Assembly: GCA_029233985.1 (NCBI GenBank)
Contig: JARGOK010000001.1
Location: 1,581 to 65,580, forward strand
Direction: 5' to 3'
DNA length: 64,000 nucleotides
Source of the DNA: Candidatus Altimarinota bacterium
GTDB lineage: Bacteria; Patescibacteriota; Gracilibacteria; JAUYGZ01
Shown: positions 33,194-64,000 of the stretch, piece by piece
Position numbering within the stretch: the first letter of the stretch is position 1
How the letters are laid out: each line of letters begins with the position of its first letter
Notes under the pieces: model-generated
Databases searched by the model: none
Seen by the model: only the letters and a program-made list of their open reading frames with translations
What the model was told of the DNA's origin: nothing
Made by a program: the position numbers and the translations under genes

Positions 33194-34348
33194 ATGGATT
33201 ACAACAAACGCTCCCTCGAGCTCCACAAAAAATTTCAAGGAAAGATCTCTGTGACCTCCAAAGTTCCTTTGGACACACAAGATGACTTGGCGACTTTTTA
33301 TTCTCCTGGCGTAGCAGAACCCTGCCGAAAAATCGCAGAAGACAAAGAGCAAGTCTACACCTATACATCAAAAAAGAACTTGGTTGCGGTGATTTCTGAT
33401 GGGTCTGCGGTACTCGGACTAGGGAATATTGGTCCAGAAGCGGGGCTTCCAGTGATGGAAGGGAAGGCCGTTCTTTTTAAAAAATTCGCTGGAGTGGAGG
33501 CTTTTCCGATTTGCTTGGATACACAAGATGTAGATGAGATTGTGAGTATTTGTAAAGCTATTGCACCAACTTTTGGTGGGATCAATCTCGAAGATATTTC
33601 TGCACCACGCTGCTTTGAAATAGAAGAACGACTTAAAAATGAGCTCGATATTCCGGTCTTTCATGATGATCAGCATGGTACGGCTATCGTTCTTTTGGCG
33701 GGGCTAAAGAATTCACTGAAACTTATCGAAAAAGACATTTCTGATATACGGATTGTGATTTCTGGAGCTGGAGCTGCTGGCATCGCCATCGGAAACCTTC
33801 TCCTCCTCGCAGGTGCAAAAGATATTATCATGTGTGATTCAAAAGGAGCAATTTGTGGTGAACGAGGTGATCTCAATCCTGTAAAGTCGGAGCTTCTCAA
33901 TCGAACGAACCCTCGTCAAATATGTGGAACCATTGCCGGAGCTCTCGTGGATGCCGATGTGTTTATTGGGGTTTCAAAACCAAATGTCATCAAGGCTGAA
34001 GATATCGGAAGAATGGCAGACAAGCCATTGATCTTTGCCATGAGTAATCCGATCCCTGAAATAATGCCTGATGATGCAAAAAAAGGAGGAGCGTTTATTG
34101 TAGCTACTGGGAGAAGTGATTATCCAAACCAACTGAACAATGTGTTGGTGTTCCCGGGGATCTTTAAGGGAGCCCTCGAAGCACGCACTCAAATCACTGA
34201 TGATATGAAGCTAGCTGCTGCAGAAGCATTGGCACAGCTAGTAGAGAACCCGACAGTAGACAAAATTATTCCAGGGCCTTTGGAAGAGGGGATTGCAGAT
34301 GTGGTGGCGTCAGCGGTAATGGGGGTTGGGAAGGAAAGACCCCTCTAG
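33194..34348 (+). CDS. NAD(P)-dependent malic enzyme
   Basis: The 384-residue enzyme decarboxylates malate oxidatively to pyruvate. The N-terminal malic domain shows FYSPGVAEPCRKIAEDKEQV (catalytic Tyr and ligand region), AVISDGSAVLGLGNIGPEAG, GKAVLFKKFAG (catalytic Lys) and PVFHDDQHGTAIV (metal-binding Asp pair). The NAD domain has VISGAGAAGIAIGNLLL and the FAMSNPIPEIMPD segment. The length fits short bacterial enzymes that lack the phosphotransacetylase tail of MaeB. Together with the fumarase subunits in this window it links fumarate to pyruvate. The coenzyme preference cannot be read reliably. Its 3' end abuts a palindromic repeat pair. Confidence 0.94.
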   Translation: MDYNKRSLELHKKFQGKISVTSKVPLDTQDDLATFYSPGVAEPCRKIAEDKEQVYTYTSKKNLVAVISDGSAVLGLGNIGPEAGLPVMEGKAVLFKKFAGVEAFPICLDTQDVDEIVSICKAIAPTFGGINLEDISAPRCFEIEERLKNELDIPVFHDDQHGTAIVLLAGLKNSLKLIEKDISDIRIVISGAGAAGIAIGNLLLLAGAKDIIMCDSKGAICGERGDLNPVKSELLNRTNPRQICGTIAGALVDADVFIGVSKPNVIKAEDIGRMADKPLIFAMSNPIPEIMPDDAKKGGAFIVATGRSDYPNQLNNVLVFPGIFKGALEARTQITDDMKLAAAEALAQLVENPTVDKIIPGPLEEGIADVVASAVMGVGKERPL

Positions 34349-34441
34349 ACCCCTAACCCCTTAAAAGGGGAACCGAACAGTGTCATTCATGACAGGAGTG
34401 TTGGAAGAGTGCGTTATTCCCCTTTTAAGGGGTTAGGGGTT
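34341..34441. repeat. Inverted pair of a short palindromic repeat
   Basis: Copy a (34351-34375, CCCCTAACCCC..GGGGAACCG) and copy b (34419-34441) are reverse complements of each other over about 24 bases. They flank a 43-base centre that itself holds the palindrome TGTCAT/ATGACA. Each copy is internally palindromic (CCCCTT/AAGGGG). The pair overlaps the end of the malic enzyme gene and lies between convergent genes, where it could act as a transcription barrier. A third copy lies within murB at 63901-63930. Confidence 0.85.
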
Positions 34442-34449
34442 GGCTCACC

Positions 34450-53568: not shown

Positions 53569-56500
53569 ATGACCGACATCCCTTCATCACCAGAAGAAGA
53601 AAGAGATTTGATTCCTAGTATGGATGAGGTTGATAATTTTAATGAAGATTTGGATGATTTAAACAAGGAAGAACAACAAGGTCTTGAAATAGATCAGGAA
53701 GATCAAGAAGCTCAAGAGTCTCTCGAAAAATCACGAAGGATAGCGTCGACTGAGGCTCCTGATATGCTGAGCTCACTTGAGTTTCGGCCGACAACACTTT
53801 TGAATAGGGAATATGATGCTGACAAGATCCTAGAGAAGAGAGACGTGCATTCTTTTTTGGCGAAATACAGGGCTGTGCTCTCTGATGAAGCTTATGAAGA
53901 ACTCGAAGATCAGGTAAAGAACCAAATCGAGAGAAATGTGAAGCCACGATGGGAGATTGAACAAAAACTCGCTAATGAACGGTATAGGAATGAAGCGAAG
54001 ACGAAGATCACAGACGCGATGAAATTTGATAAAGATGACTTAAAGAATTCGGAACTCCAAAAAGGAGGCTATCAGGCTTTTGAGGAACTGATGAAAAATA
54101 GAGGTTTGGAAGCCATTGATCCCGATTCACCTGTAAAGGGGGAATTAGAATTCCATCTTGATGAGCAAATGAAAAGCCTCTACGCAGAGTGGAAGGGGAA
54201 ATGTGAGAAAAATATATCTGAAGCAGATATGAAAGCGATGAATATCTTGAACATGGTAAAAGGTAAACTCGAAAGGTCGGTATTTTCTCGATCTGAGCTG
54301 ATCGACAATGCTCATTTTTGGAAGGATACAGGTGCTTTTGAGAGTTTTATTAAAAATGGAAAATTTTTTGGATTGGAAAAGGCCATGAAAGAAATCGAAG
54401 GATTGAACCCAAAAAAGCACGACGAGCTTCAAGAAATGGTTTCTGGTCTGATTAATGGAAAAGGGTATGAGAATTGGAAGCAGTCTTATATCGATGTCCA
54501 AGAAGGACGATTGGAATCGATGAAGAAAGAGGTCGATACTCAGATGACGATGACCCCAGATGATATTACGAATGAATCTTATGCTAAAAACCCAAAAGCC
54601 TTTCAGGATGCCATGTTTAGAAAAATGGGAAGTATTGATCCGACGGCACTCGAGAATGAACAAGAAGCTGATCTGAAACAGTACATCACCGAGCTCTCTG
54701 ACAAGAAGTATGTGGAGTGGCAAAAACTTCACTCTGGAGAAATGACTACCGAACAAACAACAGGCTCGAAGAAATTGAGAAATGCTCTTTCTCTGTCCAA
54801 AAAAGAAATGATGGATGAAAAATATGATGACCCGAAGGAATTTGAAAAACTGATGCGAAAAAAAGGGTCTCTGTCCATCAAGGAACTGCCAGACGGAGTG
54901 CGAGCTGACATGGAAAAAGGAATGGGGGCTCAAATCAAAAAATTACATCAGAAGCATATCAAAGAACGGAAGAAGATTTTGGAAAAGCAAGCAATGAAGA
55001 AAAAAACTGATATTTTTAAAAAATCAGGGCTTAATGTGAGCTTCTCGAAGCTGGACCAAGGGATCTTGGAACGGGGTACACCACGGATGAACGTCTTGAG
55101 AAAGATGCCAGAACTCAGACCTTTTTTGGGTGGAACCAACACTTTATTTGAACCTTTGATACATATTTGGACGGTAATGTTGGATGAAGGTGGAGGAGAG
55201 TCAGGGTTTCAAGCTATGAAGCAACGGCTGCAAGGAGTGAAAGACAAAAACGATCCACAGGCAGTGCTAAATGCAATGTTGGGTGCTTCGAGTGCTCGAG
55301 AAGCCTTGAAACGAGTAAGAGCGACGAGTGAACAGGCTTGGATGCAGTTTGAGATGGGAATGGCAGGATTGGGTGTTGGGTGGGAGAGTCAGGATACTGA
55401 GGAGACTCAAGATTCAGAGGATCTGGACGATGTTCATGAATTAGAGGGTCTGGAAGAGCTAGAGCTAGAAGAGAGCGAAGAAATTGAGGAAATTGAAGAG
55501 GAAGAGGAGGAGGTTGGTGAAGAGGAACACTCCCTGAACCCCGAGCTCATGTTAAGGGAGGTCATCAGAATGGAGGATACCAAAAAGCTAGAGGATCTAC
55601 AGGAAGAAAAGGAGGAAAACGAGAAAGTAGAAGAGGACGTCGAAGAGCTAGAAGAACCTGAAGAGGCTGTGGAGGATACTGAAGATATTGAGGAAAAAGA
55701 AATGATGGAGAATGATGAGTTCGGGAATGGCCTCACTTTAAAGGAGCCTGTAGTCCTAAGCGAGGATGACAATGAGGAAATTGACAAAGAAGAGGAGCAT
55801 ATTGAAGAGCTAGTTAATGAGTTGAATATTACTTCTGATGAAGAACTCATTGAGACTGATGAACCTTATGAGGAAGCGGTTGAGGAGCAGGAAGTGGAAT
55901 TCGGTGAAGAAAGATTGGCGATGACTGAAATGATTGAGCAGGACGAAGAGGAACAGGGGATTCTTGATACCGGAGATGAGCTGGAAAACCTTGAACAGAA
56001 TGAGGAAAGCCAAGAAGAACAGGAGGATGAGACTGAGAAACAGGAAATGCTGAAGCTCGTGCTTGAGGCATTGGAGCGAGAGCAAGCTGAAGAAGATGAA
56101 CTGGAAGAAGAACAAGACGTCATTCCTCTCAATGAAGTGGCTCTTCATCAGGATATGGGCATGCTAGAAAAAATGATGAAGGAACAGATCAAGATACATA
56201 CTCTTTATCTCCGAATGCTGGAAGATGAAGAGAATATTGAGGGCCTGGAGCAACTGATATCAGAGCTGCAACAGATGCTGATGTTGGAATCTCTCAATGC
56301 TACTCTTGACCATAATCGTCTCTTTGATGCCCTACAGAAGAAATTGGCTTTAGAAAAATGGTGGGAAGAACACGGATTTATCATCACTGCTAAGTCCGAC
56401 TTCGATACCTTCCTCAGTCAGTATACTGGTGATGTGACCGTTTCTCGGGCTCTGCAGATCTTTTGTTATTATGTAAATATGGTAACAGGGAAGAGTGTGG

Positions 56501-63585: not shown

Positions 63586-64000
63586 ATGAACCTCGAAGAA
63601 CACAAACCGCTTAAAAAACTGACCTGGATGAAGGTCGGAGGTCCAGCAGATTATTATGCTGAGATTTATACGAAAGCAGATCTTCTGGAGGCTTTTGGGA
63701 TTGCGAAAAAGAAAAAACTGCCCGTACTTTACTTGGGACAGGGGAGTAATATGATTATGCCAGACGAAGGGATTAGGGGAATGGTGCTGAGATTGATGAA
63801 TGGGCGAATAGGATGGGGGGATGATGCTGAAGATTCTGAGGATGTAGGATTGGACAGGATTGCAACGATTGAAGAAGATGGAAATGGAGAAAAAAAGCTG
63901 TCCGGTTCCCCTCTTAAAGGGGTAGGGGCCCAGGAAGGAACAGATGATTTTGAACGAGTCTATGTAGAAGGAGGAGTTATTCTTGCTAAGTTCATTAGAG
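63586..64000 (+). CDS. murB: UDP-N-acetylenolpyruvoylglucosamine reductase, partial (5' end)
   Basis: About 138 codons are present; the gene runs off the window. MurB reduces UDP-GlcNAc-enolpyruvate to UDP-MurNAc in peptidoglycan synthesis, using FAD and NADPH. The N-terminal motifs are LTWMKVGGPADYYAEIYTKA, PVLYLGQGSNMIMPDEGIRG and VLRLMNG. After that, where the family normally continues directly with a short loop to the VEAGA-type strand, there is an acidic Gly/Asp/Glu-rich insertion of about 40 residues (residues 80-120). Part of it is encoded by a copy of the palindromic repeat seen at 34341-34441. The following YVEGGVILAKFI segment resumes family-like sequence. Confidence 0.86.
   Translation, partial: MNLEEHKPLKKLTWMKVGGPADYYAEIYTKADLLEAFGIAKKKKLPVLYLGQGSNMIMPDEGIRGMVLRLMNGRIGWGDDAEDSEDVGLDRIATIEEDGNGEKKLSGSPLKGVGAQEGTDDFERVYVEGGVILAKFIR
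63901..63930 (+). repeat. Palindromic repeat copy inside the murB reading frame
   Basis: CGGTTCCCCT..AAGGGG.TAGGGG (63903-63928) aligns with the reverse complement of the copy at 34351-34375 (shared CGGTTCCCCT, TTAA centre, AGGGG, TAGGGG). It is read in frame within murB as about SGSPLKGVG without a stop. It is the only copy I found inside a gene. Confidence 0.75.

Follow-up and report, generated by a model that had tools for sequence, protein, structure and literature searches.

An in-frame REP-like palindrome in a lineage-specific insert of MurB, with further copies inside other genes of the same Patescibacteria genome

The 5' part of murB occupies positions 63586..64000 (+) of the window, the 64,000-nucleotide stretch of DNA analysed here, and the gene runs on beyond the window's edge. 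Joined to the downstream DNA it forms a single open frame of 332 aa, over the whole of which no frameshift was found. Pfam MurB_C and FAD_binding_4 both match the product, which also scores 181 bits against TIGR00179 murB (cut-off 144.5) with the active-site positions kept; Y200-R201, S246 and E319, which we take to be the counterparts of the known MurB active-site residues, are conserved in the alignment with relatives. Like ligA, tsaD and valS, to which we return below, murB is essential in bacteria. Several members of the same class have in-frame TGA codons in murB, and among named public genomes only distant MurB proteins were found (best-segment identities of 24 to 38%), with Peregrinibacteria and Gracilibacteria records among the best named matches; the organism is thus most likely a Patescibacterium of Gracilibacteria type.

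Compared with two genomes of the same family, G001 (from a sister genus) and G002, this MurB carries 37 additional residues, and about 44 when compared with a typical MurB of the class. All of the extra residues fall at one site, between the end of a strand near residue 70 and a conserved block near residue 125, in the turn that directly follows a beta-strand in the FAD domain; alignment with the same-family genomes and AlphaFold2 place this length-variable turn at aa 79-124 (63820..63957, +, approximate ends). The original prediction was of some 40 extra acidic residues. Its length agrees with the comparison within the family and the insert is acidic as a whole, with 15 D/E vs 5 K/R in the 47-residue stretch that spans it, but the part encoded by the repeat described below (KLSGSPLKGVGAQ) is not acidic. 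The insert is absent from the MurB of relatives, in which no unrelated large insert was found at the same site. Solved MurB structures align on either side of it and skip nearly all of the insert part, while in an AlphaFold2 model of MurB 1-138 confidence is high as far as residue 70 and then low across the greater part of 74-115, right after the strand at 63-70. The intact frame, the conserved positions and the low-confidence turn in the model support the earlier proposal that the insertion would add a surface loop without killing the protein, and the extra peptide most likely forms a flexible, near-neutral loop on the surface.

Part of the insert had been ascribed to a palindromic repeat, and this is borne out at 63896..63932 (+), where pattern search and covariance model both place a copy of a 37-nt palindrome, in frame and read as ..LSGSPLKGVGA.. 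The consensus of the family, ACTGTTCGGTTCCCCTTTTAAGGGGTTAGGGGTC, has a CCCCTT..AAGGGG stem followed by TTAGGGG, and its size (within 20-40 nt) and many dispersed copies are those of a REP; GTAG and CGTC tetranucleotides are absent from the stem foot of the consensus (ACTGTTYGGTTCCCCTTTTAAGGGGTTAGGGGTC), and we therefore class the family as REP-like and not as a tagged REP. Elsewhere in the window, copies identified by the same two methods form the left (34346..34382, -) and right (34407..34443, +) arms of an inverted pair between two convergent ORFs that, from reading alone, look like a malic enzyme and ilvE; the ORF upstream of the left arm ends in TAG at the edge of the copy. Across the host genome (1.66 Mb in 5 contigs, 96.7% complete) the pattern gave 28 matches, two of these being one place counted twice, against 0 for a backwards control, and the covariance model gave 38 matches at E<=0.001 and 73 at E<=1, the weakest of which are probably chance. 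Most copies lie outside long ORFs, often in inverted pairs, and pairs set round a spacer in the manner of a REPIN are found at 34346-34443, in tsaD, in a YD-repeat gene and at several loci of G001. Among 59 relatives, G001 is the only one in which the palindrome was found at E<=0.001, and there too it is arranged as inverted pairs.

Three forward copies and one reverse copy are clustered within about 220 nt at L135:4520-4760, and one of these appears to form the C-terminal end (..EQTPNPLRGE, then the stop) of a 202-aa ORF. Repeats of other kinds are also present in the window, which starts with large direct repeats at a spacing of about 405 nt (1-1574) and contains a long run of degenerate glutamate-rich repeats at 55390-56119.

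A Gly/Pro-rich loop might merely resemble the repeat, through chance or codon bias, and the murB copy does match the consensus at just 28 of 35 positions and, taken alone, folds as an RNA hairpin no better than shuffled sequences. Against this, its 31-nt local match was equalled in none of 2000 shuffles, and the covariance model scores it at 43.2 bits (E 3.6e-7 genome-wide), the copy being itself one of the 24 sequences on which the model was trained. The element CCCCTCTTAAAGGGGTAGGGG, at 63908-63928 with related copies at 34350-34370 (-) and 34419-34439 (+), has a mean expectation of 0.00 when the window is shuffled. Several other genes moreover show the same pattern, and we regard fortuitous likeness as extremely improbable.

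Of the 37 extra MurB residues the palindrome supplies no more than about 12, roughly a third. For the remaining ~75 of the 111 nt, which encode acidic sequence, no repeat match was found; a second palindrome family, known from G001 and described below, was tried as the source of this acidic part and did not match. The murB palindrome is a single copy, and a search of the gene for a second, left arm found none, 94% of shuffles being equally good. There is an appreciable, though lesser, chance that the loop had lengthened by other means, such as slippage or recombination of acidic sequence, and that the palindrome came later as one of several passengers. The large share of the insert that has no repeat match points this way, as does the turn in same-family relatives, which is already some 7 aa longer than in a typical MurB. 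An imperfect direct repeat of 12 nt brackets the insert (63820-63831 and 63943-63954) and could be read in the same sense, though 19 of 300 shuffles yield one as good and it is not significant as a mark of insertion. Earlier growth of the loop would, however, alter only the order of events and leave the insertion of the repeat in place, and the inserts of ligA and tsaD fit one or two repeat units.

That other genes might carry in-frame copies was confirmed. The palindrome is in frame in seven genes of the genome, in both orientations, murB being joined by at least six more: ligA, tsaD, valS and the genes for a YD-repeat protein, an Ig-like secreted protein and a DHH-family protein (in its tail). 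Profile searches recognise the host proteins as orthologues. The consensus is free of stops in one frame per strand, giving SPFKGLGV forward and TPNPLKGE in reverse, and every in-frame copy keeps to one of these two open frames throughout, save the slightly altered copy in ligA, where an additional loop base shifts the reading from the open forward frame at the start (SP) to a different frame at the end (GVRG). The extra length of LigA, 13 aa against G002 and 17 aa against G001, corresponds to about one repeat; that of TsaD, 29 and 24 aa respectively, to an inverted pair, the left arm of which is supported at 1.5 in 1000 shuffles. In valS the copy lies in reverse orientation within a loop whose length several relatives equal or exceed, and it is therefore possible, on the evidence of these alignments, that the repeat replaced loop sequence instead of lengthening it. 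The YD-repeat (RHS) protein (L126:2-5047), of 1682 aa and with a C-terminal domain that matches Pfam Peptidase_M91, contains three in-frame copies in both orientations, and the DHH/DHHA1 protein (L133:195-2405) has a long proline-rich C-terminal tail with at least two repeat-derived segments. Gene-internal copies are a minority, about 10 of the 73, which is what one would expect were the majority of gene insertions lost.

In G001 the same valS loop carries an unrelated palindrome (TAGACGAGGATCGACATCCTCGTCTA), also in frame. This element occurs at seven places in G001, allowing up to three mismatches, and was found at none in the window's genome, none in G002 and none with a control pattern. 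Five of the seven copies lie in frame within long ORFs, a share that is biased towards coding copies because the search pattern was the valS copy itself. Its hosts are valS, argS, a purL-like gene (with two units) and two other long ORFs, and this second palindrome (TAGCCGAGGATNNNNATCCTCGGCTA; L293-L299) is mostly read as (A/G)EDxxPRL or similar. A further palindromic insert is present near the N-terminus of G001 argS. Taken at its broadest, such a distribution could mean that unrelated mobile palindromes repeatedly seed new peptide segments in core enzymes of this Patescibacteria family, the repeats being compatible with coding, the same loops being struck independently across genera by different palindromes and some of the products being kept for a function; we think this unlikely.

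One REP-associated tyrosine transposase (RAYT) is encoded in the genome (C3:94959-95504), and might spread the palindromes in trans. Its product passes the cut-off of NCBIfam REP_Tyr_transpos (88 vs 80 bits) and matches Pfam Y1_Tnp, and the inverted pairs have the form of REPINs. Yet the RAYT gene has a different repeat on either side, TGGCTCCAGTCCTCTGCGAGAGACTT..AGCCCCC (L143:11600-12390), instead of forming a REPtron, an arrangement that is common though not universal, with the 37-nt palindrome; the nearest palindrome copy found lies ~1.2 kb upstream, before another gene. G001 has the palindrome and no match to the RAYT was found there; the palindrome, furthermore, has no GTAG tag. We consider it rather doubtful that this enzyme moves the family.

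The best explanation is, with high probability, that a non-autonomous REP-like palindrome has spread in this lineage and that the murB copy survived in frame within a flexible turn. On this account a small element, often in REPIN-like inverted pairs, would have transposed mostly to places between genes, and the few insertions into genes would have survived where three circumstances coincided: the repeat was stop-free in one frame per strand, the total length of the insert preserved the frame, and the insertion fell in a tolerant loop of variable length. MurB would then combine one copy in the flexible turn of its FAD domain with acidic coding sequence of ~75 nt that is specific to the lineage.

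Palindromes inserted in frame into functional genes are uncommon, the best-known cases being those of Rickettsia and a few REP-rich genomes; their presence in core enzymes encoded by a small genome of the Patescibacteria shows that the process extends to a distant group. No report of them in Patescibacteria was found in the literature searched, the coverage of which was incomplete. Two unrelated palindromes in the valS loop of sister genera make the choice between a neutral passenger and a segment kept for use directly testable.

Rickettsia palindromic elements (RPE), to which the murB insert had been likened, are summarised in PMC3733652 as short mobile palindromes that lie in frame in a number of unrelated genes, to all appearance functional, with more than one palindrome family within one bacterial group. 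The likeness seen here is one of behaviour and not of demonstrated ancestry, with in-frame copies in murB, ligA, tsaD, valS and others and more than one family in both cases; the bacteria are unrelated, and the unit is 37 nt here where RPE-1 is described as longer. Intragenic GTAG- or CGTC-tagged REPs (Di Nocera et al. 2013) are 20-40 nt long, often dimers and mostly intergenic, with some in frame within genes, including the DNA ligase of O. terrae and tRNA synthetases elsewhere (PMC3733652). The present palindrome resembles these in size, dimers, mostly intergenic placement, some in-frame copies, and ligase and tRNA synthetase hosts, but lacks a GTAG or CGTC tag at the stem foot, and the genes named in the section of PMC3733652 consulted do not include murB, valS or tsaD. 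REPINs consist of a short palindrome repeated in inverted orientation across a spacer, and are linked to RAYTs (PMC3116915, PMC2817692). Inverted pairs with a spacer and one RAYT-type transposase in the genome recall these systems; unlike them, the RAYT here stands beside another repeat, and none was matched in the palindrome-bearing G001. The palindrome behaves like RPE and intragenic REPs, yet is a separate, untagged family.
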